Part shown: positions 8,905 to 15,777 of the stretch, piece by piece
Numbering within the stretch: position 1 is the first letter of the stretch
Layout of the letters: each line of letters opens with the position of its first letter
From: Halosimplex salinum
GTDB lineage: Archaea > Halobacteriota > Halobacteria > Halobacteriales > Haloarculaceae
Direction: 5' to 3'
Assembly: GCF_003730195.1 (NCBI RefSeq)
Contig: NZ_QWGG01000014.1
Location: 1-64,000, forward strand
Length of the DNA: 64,000 nt
Position numbers and translations under genes: made by a program
The notes under the pieces: generated by a model
What the model saw: only the letters and a program-made list of their open reading frames with translations
Told to the model about the DNA's origin: nothing
Database searches by the model: none

Positions 8905-9254
8905 AGCCTGTCGTATCCATTCAATCTCTATAGAAATTCTGTTCAGAATTCCAAAATAATCTAAGCCGGCAAAGTTCTCAGATCTCTATTGGGTCAGGGA
9001 CCGAATTGGATATAGCGATATACGATATATAGAGTTCTATAAACGCCAATATCTGGTTGTAGAGGGCTCTACTCCCCATATCCCGCCAATACGCATAATT
9101 CTGTGCCTGGTTATGATTACACTGGTAATCACGACCACTTTGAAGTACCCCGCCGCCGTCGGTGAAGCACGAATGCTGCAACCGCCTCACGACGGCGCTT
9201 CCCCCGGGGTAGAGGCACCGAGACCGGGCCTGCAGGACGGTGGAGGGCCGGTGG
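8905..9254. other. gene-free boundary with a GC shift
   Basis: About 350 bases without a convincing gene. Bases 8905-9120 are AT-rich (around 9005-9040 almost only A/T plus C), and from 9121 the DNA becomes GC-rich and runs into the integrase gene. This looks like a junction between segments of different origin. No clear attachment-site repeat was found. Confidence 0.4.
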
Positions 9255-10490
9255 ATGCCTGATCGAGCACTTTCGACGCCGCTCGACGACCGCTTCGAGC
9301 GCTACCTCCAGGACAAGGGGAAAGGCCGCGGCGGTGACGGCGGGAACTATCGACGCAACGCAGCCCGCGAACTCGAGCGGTTCGCCGAGTGGGCCGCCGG
9401 CGACCGCGGCGACGACGACTGGACCGGGATCGTCCCCGACGACGTCGACCGGGAGCCGACCTTCGACGATCTCGACGAACGCGTGTTCCGGGAGTACGCC
9501 CGGCATCTCAGTGGAGATCGGGGACTCAAGCAGAACACCGTACAAACCTATTACCGCTATATCTCTGCGTGGTGCGGGTGGTGTGTCAACGAGGGATATC
9601 TCGAAGCCCATTACGCGCAGCGGGCGAGTGCGATGGCGCCGCTGCCGGAGGACGATGGCCGCAAGCCCGGTGACCAGCAGGCCTGGACGTCCGAGCAGCG
9701 TCACGCCCTCACCCGGCATGTCGACGAACGGGCCCGCGATGCCGTCGAGGCGTACACGACACTCCCTGAGGATACTGACCCTCTCGATAAGCAGCGAGCG
9801 CGCTACGCGGCGCTGAAGGCGGCTCGTGACCGGGCTCTGGTGTTCGTCCTCGCGTACACAGCTGTCCGCGTTGGGGAACTTCTCCGGGACCCGAACGATC
9901 CGCGTCGGCGTGGCGTCCGCTGGGAGGACCTCTCCTTCGATGACGGGAGTATGGACGTCTACCGGAAGAAACAGCAGTGGGACGCCGCCAGTCTCCCCGA
10001 CCCGGTGATCTCGCCGCTACGGAGTTATCGCCAGCTGATGGACCCGCCGACGGAGCGCTGGCCCGTGTTTTCGACATTCGACCAACGGACGCTCGCAGAG
10101 TTCGTCCAGGAAGACCTAGCCGAACGAGGGGAACGCCCAGAAGCAATCGCTGAACGCCGTGCGGAGTACGCTCGCGACCTGCTCCTGGCGCTCGATGAGG
10201 ACATTCGGCCGCCGTCGATCACGACGGACGGCGCACGGTCGATTCTTCAACGGCTCTCGGAGACCGCAGAGATCGATATCGACCATCCGAAACACGATTA
10301 TCTTGCTCCACACGGTGGTCGACGTGGAATGGGCGAGGTGCTTGTCCGCGCGTTTGGGTACACGGTGGCGGCCCGGTATCTCGATAATTCAGAGGAGATG
10401 GTACGAGAACGATATTCGCATATCGAAGCTGGCGAGTTGGGTGATGTCGCTACAGAAGCTCTCGAAGATGTCGATTCAGTAGACGGCTAA
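9255..10490 (+). CDS. tyrosine recombinase / phage-type integrase
   Basis: 411 residues from ATG 9255 (MPDRALSTPLDDR). The N-terminal part (residues 10-130) is a SAM-like core-binding domain (NYRRNAARELERFAEWA...TVQTYYRYISAWCGWCV). The catalytic domain has Arg205 (YTAVRVGEL), His353-x-x-Arg356 (HGGRRG) and nucleophile Tyr387 (RERYSH), so it is full length and probably active. It starts the GC-rich segment and precedes the CARF-like regulator and ubiquitin-like operon, which suggests that it mobilised them or the segment. Confidence 0.88.
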   Translation: MPDRALSTPLDDRFERYLQDKGKGRGGDGGNYRRNAARELERFAEWAAGDRGDDDWTGIVPDDVDREPTFDDLDERVFREYARHLSGDRGLKQNTVQTYYRYISAWCGWCVNEGYLEAHYAQRASAMAPLPEDDGRKPGDQQAWTSEQRHALTRHVDERARDAVEAYTTLPEDTDPLDKQRARYAALKAARDRALVFVLAYTAVRVGELLRDPNDPRRRGVRWEDLSFDDGSMDVYRKKQQWDAASLPDPVISPLRSYRQLMDPPTERWPVFSTFDQRTLAEFVQEDLAERGERPEAIAERRAEYARDLLLALDEDIRPPSITTDGARSILQRLSETAEIDIDHPKHDYLAPHGGRRGMGEVLVRAFGYTVAARYLDNSEEMVRERYSHIEAGELGDVATEALEDVDSVDG

Positions 10491-10499
10491 GCGAATCGG

Positions 10500-11267
10500 T
10501 CACGTTTCAATGAGGTGTCTGAACGCAGAAAGTGTATTTTCCCCTTCCTCGGTCAGATCTACGTCGGTCCTTCGTCCAACCTCTTTGGTTTGTATGAACC
10601 CTTTCTCGGTCAGTGGTTCTAGTACGTGCGTTTCGAGTAGTCGGTAGCGGGCTCGGTCCGAATCAGCCTCATGGTCAGTGATGAAGGGCAATCCCTCCGG
10701 TGGAGTTTCTGCTTGAATTGATTTACCATTCCCTTGGCCGAATTCGATTAGCTCCTTCTTCGTGACCGGACCATTTCGGTAAATGTACTCCATCACGTAG
10801 ATGAGCTGTGTCTCGGGGGCATCTATTGGGTACGCCGGTAGTTCCTTGATGTTCTTCACTCCGTGTGAAACCGGTTTGACCCGTTGAGCATCTTTTTCAC
10901 CATACCGTTCTGGCTCGACGTAATACGGCACCGCGTCGGTTACCATACACGCGATCATCCCGCCGATTGCGGATATTTTACTCCCGGTTGCAATGTTCAC
11001 GAACACGTCATCATCTGCGTGCTGTTGGATTTCTCGTGCCGTCACCCGGACAACCTCATACAGATCGAAAATGTTGCAGGATCGGATCTCTCGGTCAATC
11101 CCAGCTGCCTCGATATCCTCATACAGCTCCTCGATAAATGGCGGCCGTTCCCCCTCACCCCATTCCAGTAAGATTAATCGATCAGCTTTCAATTGCTCCG
11201 CGGCTTCGACGACACGATCGCGCTCGAACCCGAGCGGCGCGATATGGACTCGTTCACTGGGGCGCAT
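10500..11267 (-). CDS. CARF-like plus winged-helix regulator (HFX_2341/DUF6293 type)
   Basis: 255 residues. The N-terminal half (1-130) is Rossmann-like and contains VFVNIATGSKISAIGGMIACM, a glycine-rich loop like those of CARF domains in CRISPR-linked regulators (Csa3-type). The C-terminal half (about 150-255) is a winged helix (GPVTKKELIEFGQGNGKS... DVDLTEEGENTLSAF). It resembles the haloarchaeal HFX_2341-type regulators. CARF domains bind cyclic oligonucleotides in type III CRISPR systems; no cyclase is visible here. It is divergent from the ubiquitin-like operon 112 bases away and may control it. The family assignment is from recall, the control is inference. Confidence 0.65.
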   Translation of the reverse strand: MRPSERVHIAPLGFERDRVVEAAEQLKADRLILLEWGEGERPPFIEELYEDIEAAGIDREIRSCNIFDLYEVVRVTAREIQQHADDDVFVNIATGSKISAIGGMIACMVTDAVPYYVEPERYGEKDAQRVKPVSHGVKNIKELPAYPIDAPETQLIYVMEYIYRNGPVTKKELIEFGQGNGKSIQAETPPEGLPFITDHEADSDRARYRLLETHVLEPLTEKGFIQTKEVGRRTDVDLTEEGENTLSAFRHLIET

Positions 11268-11379
11268 GTCTCGTTGTTGGGGATTCTGTGGTTTATGCGT
11301 TTGGTGCGGATTGTGCGCTTAATGCTGCCGCTGATGTTAGAGACCGCGTGGTGCTTAAGGGAATGACGCTGTTAGGCGA
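11268..11379. promoter_or_regulatory. divergent promoter region of the CARF-like gene and Ubl operon
   Basis: Holds TATA-like candidates for both genes: on the minus strand an ATAAAC box near 11292-11300, about 26-30 bases before the ATG at 11267; on the plus strand CTTAAG near 11352-11358, about 25-30 bases before the ATG at 11380. No clear palindromic operator was seen. Confidence 0.4.
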
Positions 11380-12372
11380 ATGTGCATGCAACCAACTGAT
11401 CTTGAGGAAGCAACCCAGCATGCCCAAGACCGCTACCGAGGACTGAGCGAACAGCTCGAGTCTCTCGACGAAGAGAGGGCCGACGACCTCCGTGCCGCAC
11501 TCGAAGCCGCAGAGGACGCCATCGACGAGGCTCAAGATACCGACGAGGATCAATCCCGCTACGACGCGCTCCATCGGGCGGCCGACTACATTCAGTCAGC
11601 ACAAGACGACATCGACACCCTCCAGGACGCGGCTGGGTTCGATGTTAGCTACGCTGAGGAACTCGAAGCACTCGAAGAGGCCATCGAAGAGGTCGAGGAC
11701 GGCCTTGATGAGGCGCTCGAAGATGTTGATGAAGGTGATGCTGATGAGGACGACGAGGAGACTGACGGCTACGAGGTGACCGTCAGTGGGGAAACGAAAG
11801 TACTCGACCAGCAGTACATCGAGCCGATCGAACTGCTGCGCACGTTCGAGTACGATCCTAACCAGTACGTCCTCTACCCGCCCGACGAGGACGAGCGAGT
11901 CCCCAAAGACAGCGAAATCAACCTCGCCGAAGAGAACGTCTTCGACGCAATCCCCGTTGACACTGCCTACGGGAGCACTCAGCTCGACGACGTGCTCGCA
12001 GCGGACATCGACGCCCTTCGAGAAAACCGCGAGGTCGATGTCGATACCGAGGCCGAGGCGCAGTTCGTCCACGTCATCGTTCGGGACTACCAGATCCCGT
12101 CGGATGCCTACAATGCGGACACGACGGACGTGATGATCCGCGTCCATGAGAACTACCCCCAGAAGGCTCCGGACTGGGTCTACGTCGACGAGGATCTCCG
12201 GCTTGAAGGAGGCGGCGAGCTTCGGAAATCTCGCGACGACCAAGTCCGGGGCTGGTTGGCTCTTTCCTGGCACATCAACAAACTGGACGGCATCGAGTGG
12301 GAACCCTACGAGACCGATCTCGAGTGGTATCTGGAGACCGTCGCGAACGGACGACTCCGACAGGGTGACTGA
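11380..12372 (+). CDS. ubiquitin-like (multiubiquitin-type) and E2-like fusion protein
   Basis: 330 residues (328 if ATG 11386 is used). Residues 1-125 are an acidic coiled coil. Residues about 130-195 (YEVTVSGETKVLDQQYIEP ... NVFDAIPVD) match the prokaryotic multiubiquitin beta-grasp pattern. Residues about 215-325 match the prokaryotic E2 family E pattern: ENYPQKAPDWVYVDEDL, then GWLALSWH and EWEPYETDLEWYLETVANGRL. The only cysteine is Cys2, so no E2 active-site cysteine is present. It is followed by a JAB-E1 fusion and a KTSC gene, the gene set of bacterial ubiquitin-like operons. It would supply or carry the modifier and act at the E2 step, perhaps as a scaffold. Confidence 0.75.
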   Translation: MCMQPTDLEEATQHAQDRYRGLSEQLESLDEERADDLRAALEAAEDAIDEAQDTDEDQSRYDALHRAADYIQSAQDDIDTLQDAAGFDVSYAEELEALEEAIEEVEDGLDEALEDVDEGDADEDDEETDGYEVTVSGETKVLDQQYIEPIELLRTFEYDPNQYVLYPPDEDERVPKDSEINLAEENVFDAIPVDTAYGSTQLDDVLAADIDALRENREVDVDTEAEAQFVHVIVRDYQIPSDAYNADTTDVMIRVHENYPQKAPDWVYVDEDLRLEGGGELRKSRDDQVRGWLALSWHINKLDGIEWEPYETDLEWYLETVANGRLRQGD

Positions 12373-12415
12373 CGCGAGCCCTCCCGCTGGCGATCAACCC
12401 TCCCACACCACATCT

Positions 12416-14209
12416 ATGCAGGGACATGAGATTGACGGCAGCCGAGAGCGAGCGACGGGGAGCAAGCCGCGGGTATCTCACTGGCTTCGCTCCGTGCTAG
12501 AAGACCCTGATCACGAGTGGCCGGTCGCTGACCGGATACGGGTTCGGATCCGAGGCTCCGACTACCAGCGGCTACGCGAGCATCTCGTGCGTCCGGAGCA
12601 GAAGTGTCCGAAAGAGCATGCCGCCTATCTCGTTGCCGGTACACAGGAGTACACTCATCGTGGGCAGCGGGTCTTCGAGTATCTCATTCGTGAGGTTCAC
12701 CTGCTGGATCGGGAGGAATATCTCGATCAGTCGACCGGAATCGTCCGATTCGATCACACGACGATCCGGTCGATGATGCGGACGAGCGAGACGGACCATC
12801 GATATCTCGACGACATGGCGCTTCTGATGTGCCATAGCCATCCCCGTTCGAGCCAGCCGTGCTACTCGGGCACCGATGACGAGAACGAGCCGGCCCATAT
12901 GGCGTCGCTGACCGGTCGAACTGCTGGTCCGCATGGAAGCCTCATCTTTGGTCAAGGGGGTCTGACCGGCCGGGCGTGGCTCTCGGACGTCCCAACGATC
13001 AGGCATGAGCCGATCACGGCCGCCGCGTCGCCGATTGATGAACTCGTTGTCATTCACGACCGTGAACTAGAGCGGATTCGGACGACGGATTCACGACTCC
13101 CTCCGGTTTCAAACGACGGCGACGAGATGCGCGACCGGCAGGCGTTGCTCCACGGAGCCGGCGGTAACACTCGGCTACGGGACGCTCACGTCGCCGTAGT
13201 CGGTGCTGGTGGACTCGGTGCCCCGATCGTCCAGACGCTCGCTCACCTCGGGGTTGGCGCGATCACGGTCGTCGATCCCGACGTCGTGGAGGAATCCAAC
13301 CGCTCGCGAATCGTCGGTGCGCGACCAGCCGATGCTGGTGATCCCGAGCGGACGCCCGACGAGGATGGTGTCGTCCCAGCTGCGTGGGCCGAGGCCATCG
13401 ACGGATGTGGAACGCCCAAGGCGGAGGTCCTGGGCCGCGTTGTCTCCGATATTGATCCGTCGATCTACTATCATGGCATCCACGAGGAAGTACAGGCTCC
13501 GAAAGCGCTGGAGCAGGTCGTTGCTGCGGACGTGATTGTTACTGGCACCGATACCGCCACGTCACGTCGATTCGTGTCGGAGGCCGCCCAGCAGTATCTT
13601 CGGCCCCTGTTCAACGCTGGCACGGATATCGATGTTGACGACGACGCTGGACTCCGAAGCATCGCGACCAGCTTCCAGGTGTCCGGCGCGAACCGGGCGT
13701 GTCTGGACTGCTTGGATGCGATCAACGAAGATCGAATTGATGCCGAAGGCGAAGACGAAGACAATCTCGAGTACGGGCTTGAACTCGTTGCCGGAGAGCA
13801 ACCGTCGGTTATCACAATCAATCAGGAACCGGTACAACGGTTGACGTTCGCGCTGCACCGGTTCCTCACGGGACTCCTCGCCGACCGGCACGGATTCCGA
13901 ACCGGCACGTACAGCGCAACGTCTGACCGCCTTGTGAGCGACGCAGAGGCTACTCCCGACTGCCAGTTCTGTAATGGGGCGTTCACAGCTGCCGGCGATC
14001 GTGGCGTTCCAATAGCGAAGACAGGACTCTATCGGACAACGCCGTCGACTGTCGAGACGGGGAGTGTCGCAGAACTGGATCTCGATTCTGTCGTCGAGAA
14101 AGAGCCAGCCGAGGACAAGGCTGAACCTGAAGGTGATGAACCGTCCAAAGAGCATAGCCTACTCGCTCGTATCAAGAGTACGGTAGCCCGCTATATCCCA
14201 CAGCTATGA
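12416..14209 (+). CDS. JAB/MPN metalloprotease fused to E1/ThiF-like adenylating enzyme
   Basis: 597 residues from ATG 12416; a GTG at 12365 overlapping the upstream stop is possible. Residues about 30-220 form a JAB/JAMM domain: an upstream EHAAYLVAG segment and the HSHP-x7-S-x2-D zinc motif (His140, His142, Asp154). Residues from about 240 form an E1-like domain: nucleotide-binding GAGGLG (263-268), TVVDPDVVEESNRSR, a central region without obvious truncation, and two CxxC pairs (Cys429/432, Cys516/519) as in zinc-binding E1/ThiF proteins. It should adenylate the Ubl C-terminus and also process or remove conjugates. This fusion and order match JAB-E1 proteins of bacterial multiubiquitin operons. 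Confidence 0.85.
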   Translation: MQGHEIDGSRERATGSKPRVSHWLRSVLEDPDHEWPVADRIRVRIRGSDYQRLREHLVRPEQKCPKEHAAYLVAGTQEYTHRGQRVFEYLIREVHLLDREEYLDQSTGIVRFDHTTIRSMMRTSETDHRYLDDMALLMCHSHPRSSQPCYSGTDDENEPAHMASLTGRTAGPHGSLIFGQGGLTGRAWLSDVPTIRHEPITAAASPIDELVVIHDRELERIRTTDSRLPPVSNDGDEMRDRQALLHGAGGNTRLRDAHVAVVGAGGLGAPIVQTLAHLGVGAITVVDPDVVEESNRSRIVGARPADAGDPERTPDEDGVVPAAWAEAIDGCGTPKAEVLGRVVSDIDPSIYYHGIHEEVQAPKALEQVVAADVIVTGTDTATSRRFVSEAAQQYLRPLFNAGTDIDVDDDAGLRSIATSFQVSGANRACLDCLDAINEDRIDAEGEDEDNLEYGLELVAGEQPSVITINQEPVQRLTFALHRFLTGLLADRHGFRTGTYSATSDRLVSDAEATPDCQFCNGAFTAAGDRGVPIAKTGLYRTTPSTVETGSVAELDLDSVVEKEPAEDKAEPEGDEPSKEHSLLARIKSTVARYIPQL

Positions 14210-14418
14210 ACCGAACACCCGTTTCGTCGAGTAACCTGAAAAGTGTCGGCTACGATCAGAGTTCGAACACCCTCGAGATCGAATTCCACGGTGGCCGAGT
14301 CTATCAGTACTACAACGTCCCTAAGAGAATCTATCAAGGACTGATGGCGGCATCCTCTCACGGAAAGTATCATCATCGCCAAATCAAAGACAGCTATCGA
14401 TATTCTCGGATTCGGTAG
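14206..14418 (+). CDS. KTSC-domain protein
   Basis: 70 residues, overlapping the JAB-E1 gene by ATGA. The whole protein is one KTSC domain: SSSNLKSVGYDQ, then a two-strand segment LEIEFHGGRVYQYYNVPKRIYQGLM, then SSHGKYHHRQIKDSYRYSRI. KTSC is a small domain found alone or fused to other enzymes, with no well-established biochemistry. Its coupling to the E1 gene makes it a probable third component or substrate of the ubiquitin-like system. Confidence 0.8.
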   Translation: MNRTPVSSSNLKSVGYDQSSNTLEIEFHGGRVYQYYNVPKRIYQGLMAASSHGKYHHRQIKDSYRYSRIR

Positions 14419-14485: not shown

Positions 14486-15709
14486 TTACGGCGGAATCCA
14501 GCTTGTGTGATCGCGGAGCGTTGAATTGGGGGATTCCATCGTCGCACCGCACTTGGGGCAGTAATCTTCGATCGCATCCTCGTCGTAGAGATAGTGATCG
14601 CACTCGGGAGGGCTGGCCTGGAAATACACGTTATCCCAGTCGAGATTAGGCTCTCGACCGTAGAGACAGAATGTACTGTGTCCAGACCGCCCTCGGTGGT
14701 TCGTTACTAACCGAACGGGGCAGTACATGCACTCGCGCAGTTCGATTAACGGCTGGTCAGAATGGTTTGTCCAGAGCGTTTCTCGCCGTCCCCATTCGTG
14801 AAACCCCTTCGGCCCCCGGCAGCGCTCTATCTCAGGTCGTGTCGCAAGCAGTTTCTCAACCTGTGCGGAATGGTACTGGCTTCCTGCCCACTTCCAGAAC
14901 GGGTTTCGATCGTACTCCCGGACAATCGCGTTCTTGAGTGCTTTCAGAGGAAAGTCGGGGCCGTACTCGTCGCTCGCGGTGTAGGTGTAACTGCCGTCGC
15001 GCTCGTGAAGCCGGCGTAGCTCGCAACCCTGGGCAGTACAGATATCGTACGTAATCAGGTCATCTTGTCCGCGGGGATGGGCATAGGGCGGCACGCGCTC
15101 CCACGCATGTTCGCCGTCGTAGAGGAGCGCTTGGCAGTTCGTAATTCGGCTAGCTTTGCTCGTTCGTTGGGCGTATCCAGAACCATCGTCTTGCTCAAAT
15201 TCGGCACCGATCGTATCGTAGTTGAACGTATCGAGAAGGACTGTTGCCGCGCGTATCCAGACGACCGAGTACCCAGCGGCCAAGTAGTCATGCGTCACCT
15301 GATGGACGTCCTTGTCCTTGTGACTGTGCTGTACCTCAACGGCGAGGCCTTCCCCGAAATAAGGGTTCCAATCGTCAAAGGTCGCGAGTGCGTCGGCCCG
15401 GCGTTCGGTCACAGGTGTTGGCACCTCGGCCACGTCGACGTCCACCTCCGTCTCGATGCGGGCGTTTTCTCCAAATTGCTGGTGCAGAGCGACCTCAACA
15501 CGGGCGACTGCGCGTTCGTGGGTCTCTGACTCGCCGCCATTCGAGCAGCGCTGGCCGGCGTCGTCTGATACGTGGTAGAAGTGTCGAGACTTGCCCGGCG
15601 CCGATCGCGGGTACATCGTCCCGCCGCATACCGGACAGGTGACTTCTTCTCCATCGTCAACTATGGCGGGGACGACCGGGCGACCGTCACGACGACCGCG
15701 GAAGGGCAT
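14486..15709 (-). CDS. CoiA-like nuclease, paralog 1
   Basis: Start set at ATG 15709 (MPFRGRRDGRPV), which aligns with MPFIAQSS of the next paralog; the upstream extension is dropped. N-terminal zinc finger (CPVCGG ... HFYH), then RCSNGGESETHERAVAR and the PD-(D/E)xK core of the CoiA family: ERRADALATF and GLAVEVQHSHKDKD, then HDYLAAGYSVVWI. A C-terminal region adds further cysteine pairs (CMYC, CPKCG). CoiA acts in processing incoming DNA in competent bacteria; in archaea the role is unknown. It is third in an operon with a PadR regulator and a paralog. Confidence 0.75.
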   Translation of the reverse strand: MPFRGRRDGRPVVPAIVDDGEEVTCPVCGGTMYPRSAPGKSRHFYHVSDDAGQRCSNGGESETHERAVARVEVALHQQFGENARIETEVDVDVAEVPTPVTERRADALATFDDWNPYFGEGLAVEVQHSHKDKDVHQVTHDYLAAGYSVVWIRAATVLLDTFNYDTIGAEFEQDDGSGYAQRTSKASRITNCQALLYDGEHAWERVPPYAHPRGQDDLITYDICTAQGCELRRLHERDGSYTYTASDEYGPDFPLKALKNAIVREYDRNPFWKWAGSQYHSAQVEKLLATRPEIERCRGPKGFHEWGRRETLWTNHSDQPLIELRECMYCPVRLVTNHRGRSGHSTFCLYGREPNLDWDNVYFQASPPECDHYLYDEDAIEDYCPKCGATMESPNSTLRDHTSWIPP

Positions 15710-15777
15710 ACCGGCAAAGAACATCTCGGTAAGCAAATAATCTCTCCCAGCTGTAGGCCAGTACAAGACGGAACAGG

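Follow-up and report, generated by a model that had tools for sequence, protein, structure and literature searches.

A gene of Halosimplex salinum that stands head to head with a Ubl/E2-E1/JAB-KTSC operon encodes a CARF domain followed by a predicted winged helix. The protein is probably, at roughly two chances in three, a local and exchangeable transcription controller of the operon it faces, functionally like the CapW/BrxR regulators. Some relatives stand in front of other defence-type operons; this suggests that the gene is a control module in repeated use and not a component of CRISPR. CARF sensing is usually treated as a readout of type III CRISPR. A first-pass annotation of this DNA, noting that CARF domains sense cyclic oligonucleotides, had proposed that a nucleotide signal may switch the module on. 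The family is a known one in a new setting, that of a local controller of immune operons, and the signal proposed by that annotation is probably wrong. What, then, does the regulator control, and what does it sense?

The regulator and the operon it faces

The features concerned are listed in Table 1, with positions counted in the window, that is, the whole stretch of 64,000 nucleotides that was analysed. The first-pass annotation had described a divergent gene with a CARF-like Rossmann part and a winged helix, 112 bp from the Ubl operon, and Pfam, PADLOC, and the coordinates bear this out. PF19810 (HFX_2341_N) scores 129.6 bits against a cut-off of 30 and is followed along the protein by PF22665 (DUF6293_C) at 95.3 bits against 27, each above its gathering score, which makes the protein a member of the HFX_2341/DUF6293 family. 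The PADLOC CARF3 model (PDLC01847), a model of the CARF superfamily, covers residues 1 to 253 with an E value of 1.7e-90. Since these matches lie far above the cut-offs, the CARF-like part, the winged helix, the orientation, and the spacing are real and beyond chance. The segment NIATGSKISAIGG lies at residues 91 to 103 of the 255-aa protein. The interval first assigned to the gene ended at 11379 and included the intergenic region, up to the ATG of the operon at 11380.

Table 1. Features of the regulator, the operon it faces, and the neighbouring integrase (positions in the window)
Feature	Position	Strand	Basis
Tyrosine-recombinase-like integrase, convergent with the CARF gene	9240..10490	+	Phage_int_SAM_5 E 1.6e-6
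CARF-wHTH regulator gene, 255 aa, HFX_2341/DUF6293 family	10500..11267	-	domain matches; dN/dS 0.04-0.13 in four copies
DUF6293_C winged-helix DNA-binding domain (predicted), residues 142-249	10521..10844	-	PF22665 E 3.4e-27
CARF (HFX_2341_N) domain, residues 6-122	10902..11252	-	PF19810 E 1.1e-37; PADLOC CARF3
CARF motif II, residues 91-97 (N I A T G S K)	10977..10997	-	96-sequence alignment
CARF motif I, residues 11-18 (P L G F E R D R)	11214..11237	-	96-sequence alignment
Intergenic region, 112 bp, between two divergent start codons; presumed operator/promoters	11268..11379	.	sequence
Helical (coiled-coil-like) + putative Ubl + E2-like protein, 330 aa	11380..12372	+	Prok-E2_E E 1e-10, residues 215-288
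JAB-E1 fusion	12365..14209	+	ThiF E 1.8e-29; Prok-JAB E 9.7e-4, below cut-off
KTSC-domain protein	14206..14418	+	PF13619 E 1.2e-26

How close is the protein to better-known regulators? NF051475, the equivalog model of HFX_2341, gives it 12.7 bits against a cut-off of 500, and TIGR01884, the Csa3 model, 29.6 bits against 60.2. Judged by these scores, it is a member of the HFX_2341 family that is not a Crr ortholog, and it is not a Csa3. No Pfam match to WYL, peptidase, kinase, or STAS was found on it at E values up to 1, and by that search it shows no homology to CapW (WYL), CapH+CapP, or CapK+CapS.

The faced operon opens with a 330-aa protein whose Ubl segment matched no Pfam family. The predicted model of this protein is good for the N-terminal helices only, with low confidence over the Ubl segment, and found no Foldseek match below an E value of 0.001; a ubiquitin-like part is plausible from the logic of the operon. 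The sole cysteine is residue 2, so classical thioester E2 chemistry is unlikely. In a more distant relative (genome G372) two separate genes take the place of the one for this protein. The JAB-E1 gene has a GTG start, inferred from sequence, and overlaps the stop of the E2 gene by 8 bases; its product matches E1-E2 models from 7.7e-12. Weak CoiA matches lie further along the window, at 14489-15766. On the other side of the CARF gene, the integrase had no significant blastp match with that of locus L119, where a related CARF gene is found (see below), so the pairing of integrase and CARF is not one conserved module.

Conserved motifs of a probable ligand pocket

Pocket residues were compared in 96 sequences, kept from 98 proteins found because more than 200 residues matched; the set includes the window's protein, near-copies, and duplicate records. 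Motif I is nearly invariant, with G13 in 95 of the 96, a Y, F, or W at position 14 in 89, E15 in 94, and R18 in all. For motif II the counts are 96 (N91), 91 (G95), and 79 (K97), and D29 is present in every sequence. The window's protein itself has G13, F14, E15, and R18 together with N91, G95, S96, and K97, and thus both motifs. In Csa3, the residues that touch cA4 are G9 and F10 (motif I) together with G96 and R98 (motif II), and an F10A exchange abolishes the binding (PMC8844856). The counterparts of these residues in the window's protein are G13-F14 for G9-F10 and G95-S96-K97 for G96-x-R98. By its residues the pocket looks functional; the identity of the ligand is not readable from it.

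Structural comparison adds mild support. A PDB search with a 19-sequence profile returned the CARF domain of Card1 as its top match, a weak one (E 0.13) that places VNITGGTK under VNlasgsK. The AlphaFold model of the CARF protein alternates strands and helices over residues 1 to 110 at a mean pLDDT of 47, a low confidence that follows from an alignment of three near-identical sequences. When this model was submitted to Foldseek, chains of T. thermophilus Csm6 took ranks 1 to 7 and Can2 rank 10, with a best E value of 9.3e-4 and a TM-score of 0.33; because other Rossmann enzymes come close behind, from 6.6e-3, the support for a CARF fold is mild. The first-pass annotation would have given up its reading for a neighbourhood that was not conserved together with a predicted structure lacking a CARF-like pocket. 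The neighbourhood proved conserved in the near-identical operons, as described next, and on the side of the pocket stands the low-confidence prediction at pLDDT 47, for which Csm6 chains came first.

Pairing with Ubl and Bil operons

Does the CARF gene accompany the Ubl operon elsewhere, as had been proposed? It does so in the near-identical operons and not in the more distant ones. A search for the E1 in 391 Halobacteria at an E value of 1e-15 matched 10 genomes. Near-identical E1s (94-96%) to that of the window's genome (G000) occur in G333, G369, G373, and G092, and a CARF gene adjoins in all five, the four others encoding proteins 95-97% identical to the window's. Halorarius litoreus holds a sixth near-identical operon, again with CARF. 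The head-to-head CARF gene is therefore present in 6 of the 6 near-identical operons found, and the carriers are the window, Halorarius litoreus, Haloarcula sp. SYNS111, Natrinema gari, Halomicroarcula rubra, and Halorubrum CBA1229. These six cassettes are one lineage with one origin. Their flanks vary from copy to copy, and the homology common with the Halorarius and H. rubra copies has one border at the KTSC stop codon and the other within the final portion of a related integrase, of which only the 3' end remains. In the four copies compared, the CARF gene has dS values of 0.18-0.39 and dN/dS values of 0.04-0.13; it has been co-inherited with the Ubl operon under purifying selection.

Some copies show irregularities. 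The CARF gene of SYNS111 (L067 5133-5897) has a frameshift near its N terminus, and the E1 of H. rubra (G369:C37:70491-72311) an in-frame stop, each of which may be a sequencing error; the Halorarius E1 (L115 6059-7495) is annotated as a shorter protein.

Beyond this lineage, more distant haloarchaeal E1 relatives were checked in six fetched stretches (G230, G372, G320, G290, a Halobacterium plasmid, and a Salinigranum plasmid), and none has a CARF gene there; another relative, in G336, was checked in its short locus only. Among 56 E1-bearing loci examined, CARF appears only in L066-L069, all of them near-identical copies. The Ubl operon hence does not need CARF. A viral origin of the CARF gene was considered and dropped, as no relative was confirmed in viral contigs and none was found in phages.

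A more distant CARF protein, 45% identical to the window's, is encoded on a plasmid of Natrinema zhouii (L118), head to head at 124 bp with a four-gene Bil-type operon. The operon matches BilB (1e-5), BilC (1.8e-10), and BilD (1.2e-29), and in the place of BilA it has an 86-aa first gene whose protein has no model match. The same arrangement recurs in a second genome of the genus (G400, L221), with a CARF protein 93% identical to that of N. zhouii and matches to BilB (7.6e-7), BilC (1.8e-10), and BilD (6.7e-30). With BilB, BilC, and BilD in one operon, both loci count as Bil. The window's operon differs in that it fuses the E2 to a helical/Ubl-like part and the JAB to the E1, and neither its E2 nor its E1 protein matches a Bil model at an E value of 0.01. 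This BilD is found in only 2 of 29 genomes of the genus Natrinema, N. zhouii and G400, and two plasmids with a more distant archaeal BilD (54.6% and 43.7%) are absent from the 23 that carry a CARF relative. Did the pairing with Ubl and Bil operons arise twice? The window's clade and the N. zhouii protein were united in 0% of 200 bootstrap trees (92 rows, four duplicate loci dropped), and in this tree no strongly supported branch would force two origins.

The shared intergenic region

In the four cassette copies compared, the 112 bp between the divergent start codons are 93-95% identical, and the window's region contains no exact inverted repeat of 7. In the 150 bp upstream of CARF relatives, CGTTAC/GTAACG occurs at 29 of 87 loci, versus 31 of 400 background upstream regions, and, once sequences are collapsed at 60% identity, in 9 of the 23 clusters; the counts make it a candidate for the operator of the family. 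As the operator of the window's own CARF gene it was rejected, being the best of many k-mers and absent upstream of that gene. Sigma-70 and terminator scans, which are unsuited to archaea, found nothing.

How might the region be used? A CARF dimer would bind it through the winged helices and, so bound, would keep both its own promoter and that of the Ubl/E2-E1/JAB-KTSC operon low. A small nucleotide signal in the pocket of the dimer would alter the geometry of the wings, and the altered wings would release (or activate) the operon under stress or infection. In this scheme we infer the DNA binding, the repression in preference to activation, the nucleotide ligand, and the antiviral purpose.

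One regulator family before several kinds of operon

Which genes do the relatives of this regulator face? The best-scoring relatives were chosen for this survey, not a random sample, and 87 loci were examined after ten redundant loci and L125, which was below the score limit, had been dropped; the stretches L058, L060, L130, and L176 had no CARF gene call. A divergent upstream neighbour is present in 52 of the 87, and within 400 bp in 42. By our own classification, 10 of these 42 face a defence-type operon, of seven kinds, and the remaining 32 face genes not recognised as defence, most of which have no one-by-one annotation. A second batch of 13 stretches, one of which (L233) repeats part of L209, had a CARF gene call in 11, of which one faces defence genes (the Bil operon of L221).

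Two of the seven kinds are the window's Ubl/E2-E1 operon and the N. zhouii Bil operon. A third is a DUF2797 gene with a prokaryotic Argonaute (pAgo) gene, faced at L138 (PDLC02391, E 0), L140, and L146. A PLD-domain protein, followed by a Mre11-like phosphoesterase and a SMC/Rad50-like ATPase, is found at L139 and L141, and L119 has a GIY-YIG protein and an 87-aa protein before Mre11-like and SMC-like proteins. L120 faces an SF1-type helicase, a small gene, a pyrophosphohydrolase, and a Schlafen-group helicase. Finally, the CARF gene of L189 faces a 111-aa gene and then the CBASS pair CD-NTase (1.7e-87) and Cap15 (2.1e-18). The head-to-head spacing with the Bil, pAgo, CBASS, and nuclease/Mre11/SMC operons is 122-206 bp. 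At L119, L139, and L141 the Mre11-like gene starts 219-313 bp beyond the preceding gene, so a single operon is not certain there. The DUF2797 + pAgo operon with its divergent CARF gene (L138 5569-11403) occurs in three haloarchaeal genera, and at L138 the opposite flank holds a gene that weakly matches CoiA_N.

PADLOC models at an E value of 1e-12 matched at least 6 of 66 facing proteins (at least 5 of 40 loci), versus 0 of 43 control proteins (25 loci) from divergent arms elsewhere in the same stretches. The facing set leaves out the window's proteins and those below 60 aa, and its counts refer to the best 25 of 33 families; the control comprises 43 of 45 non-window proteins, without two at stretch ends. 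By loci, the enrichment has the expected direction and is not significant with this small control (Fisher p 0.08).

Exchange of operons can be seen directly in one case. The CARF proteins of L120 and L189 are 85% identical, and the DNA of the two loci is alike over 1025 bp (83%), through most of the CARF gene and the upstream region, after which the operons differ. At L189 the similarity reaches 97 bases into the 111-aa gene at the head of the CBASS operon. Beyond it L120 has the helicase operon, so one operon was exchanged for another in front of a regulator that was kept. The pAgo of G361, 76% identical to that of L138, has no CARF neighbour, and the three further pAgos checked, at about 41%, have none either. 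The plasmids bearing CD-NTases at 88% do not appear in the set of plasmids that carry a CARF relative. On these comparisons, the regulator comes and goes with operon lineages that are young.

One regulator family is thus found at the promoters of unrelated immune operons (Ubl/E2-E1, Bil, pAgo, CBASS, nuclease/Mre11/SMC, and helicase), and the analogy with the bacterial Cap regulators is positional only. In PMC13373217, CapW/BrxR, CapH+CapP, and CapK+CapS are described as often leading bacterial immune operons and sensing DNA damage or single-stranded DNA; the word "CARF" is absent from the text of that paper. What they share with the CARF proteins is their place, at promoters of immune operons of several kinds, CBASS and Bil among them. 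The proteins differ, with WYL, HTH plus peptidase, or kinase plus STAS there and CARF here. CARF proteins as such were described as ligand-binding regulators of defence in 2014, in the CARF/WYL paper (PMC4012209).

The signal, and other readings of the gene

The first-pass annotation had supposed that the cognate cyclase is not in the window. The window's genome has, outside the window, a diadenylate-cyclase (DAC) gene and two CBASS-type nucleotidyltransferase genes. The latter are two head-to-head CD-NTase genes, each followed by a 2TM-like partner (L211 5624-8861; G000:C2), and one of them is nearly identical at its start to the CD-NTase paired with CARF at L189. The DAC family is present in 15 of 15 carrier genomes examined, so that, among the products of the cyclases tested, c-di-AMP alone could be made by all carriers. 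It is also present in 11 of 14 control genomes, and being so widespread it offers permissive evidence only. The signal is most likely a cyclic nucleotide not made by Cas10, for example c-di-AMP.

Could it nevertheless come from Cas10? A Csa3-like sensor of type III cyclic oligoadenylates would respond to cA4 or cA6 from Cas10 by turning on the Ubl operon, and the resemblance to Csa3, known from Sulfolobales CRISPR loci, extends to the CARF-wHTH layout, the G-aromatic of motif I, and the G-x-K/R of motif II. However, the Cas10 palm family was found in only two of the 391 haloarchaeal genomes searched, which belong to a single genus, with no match in the window's genome or in the other 388 (the search did not cover G400 and G403), whereas CARF relatives are present in 220 of the 391. 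In both Cas10 genomes (L209 and L210) a CARF relative does lie some 10 kb away from Cas10; with a single genus concerned and several other genes between the two, this proximity was not accepted as a link. Given this distribution, and a score below the TIGR01884 cut-off, type III cyclic oligoadenylates were rejected as the signal, and the reading is very improbable. The domains seen by the first-pass annotation stood, and the head-to-head neighbourhood that it proposed to check is kept in the near-identical operons; the cyclic-oligoadenylate signal was not supported. A product of CBASS CD-NTases, with CARF linking the CBASS alarm to other defence operons, would suit the relative that faces the CD-NTase/Cap15 operon and the two CD-NTase pairs of the window's genome. 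Against it, those pairs have no CARF gene in the fetched stretch, and of 15 genomes with a CARF cassette only 2 have SMODS above the cut-off, or 5 at an E value of 0.001, by a single model that may miss divergent CD-NTases. These counts weaken a CBASS product as the common signal and leave this reading quite unlikely.

The regulator might also have little to do with the operon beside it. HFX_2341 of Haloferax mediterranei was described in 2024, and PMC11434293 reports that HHpred finds it similar to Csa3a, that it has no genomic connection with CRISPR, in a species that lacks a type III cyclase, and that it behaves like a repressor in vivo; the protein affects transport and metabolism genes as a global regulator, and c-di-AMP or cAMP was named as a possible signal. 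The window's protein shares with it PF19810 and PF22665, both named after HFX_2341, and is likewise a haloarchaeal CARF-like protein with a winged helix. Since HFX_2341 is global, a local role of the window's CARF protein is not automatic: a metabolism-linked regulator could have been picked up by a plasmid and be hitch-hiking beside the Ubl operon, and the single origin of the near-identical cassettes agrees with this. So does one clade of 14 CARF relatives, in which a glyA-like gene, named from its sequence and which we take to encode serine hydroxymethyltransferase, lies in the fetched stretch of 10 (L056, L061, L062, L127, L129, L131, L134, L135, L137, and L145), suggesting a housekeeping role for that branch. 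Unlike the core chromosomal HFX_2341, however, the window's gene is on a mobile cassette facing a defence-type operon and was kept under purifying selection while the flanks changed; the head-to-head geometry is repeated with Bil, pAgo, CBASS, and nuclease/Mre11/SMC operons, and operon exchange is visible, so that hitch-hiking is doubtful while keeping some real chance. The position before the same kinds of operon (CBASS and Bil) as CapW, CapH+P, and CapK+S (PMC13373217) would also allow CapW/BrxR-like sensing of DNA damage or single-stranded DNA through a degenerate CARF pocket. A degenerate pocket is not expected to keep motifs near-invariant in 96 sequences, and there is no WYL match; sensing of this kind is unlikely. 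The local, exchangeable controller of the faced operon, reading a ligand in its CARF pocket, is the reading that we prefer.

What the pairing could mean for haloarchaeal immunity

Haloarchaea have a large CARF family whose pocket is kept in genomes almost without Cas10, and some of its mobile members stand at unrelated defence-type promoters. It is a tentative step from there to the view that CARF-wHTH proteins are general exchangeable controllers of haloarchaeal immune operons, reading a CRISPR-independent cyclic nucleotide (perhaps c-di-AMP). In the literature open to us, partly accessible and mostly in the form of listings, no pairing of haloarchaeal CARF-wHTH genes with Ubl-type, pAgo, or CBASS operons was found in print, and on that same basis archaeal counterparts of CapW/BrxR-type regulators, and archaeal Bil operons so controlled, appear to be new. 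What CARF regulators sense where there is no Cas10 becomes a question that can be tested in Haloferax. If the general view is true, there would be a CARF transcriptional network outside type III CRISPR, switching on ubiquitin-like, Argonaute, and CBASS defence, and the ligand, if found, could reveal a second messenger of archaeal innate immunity.
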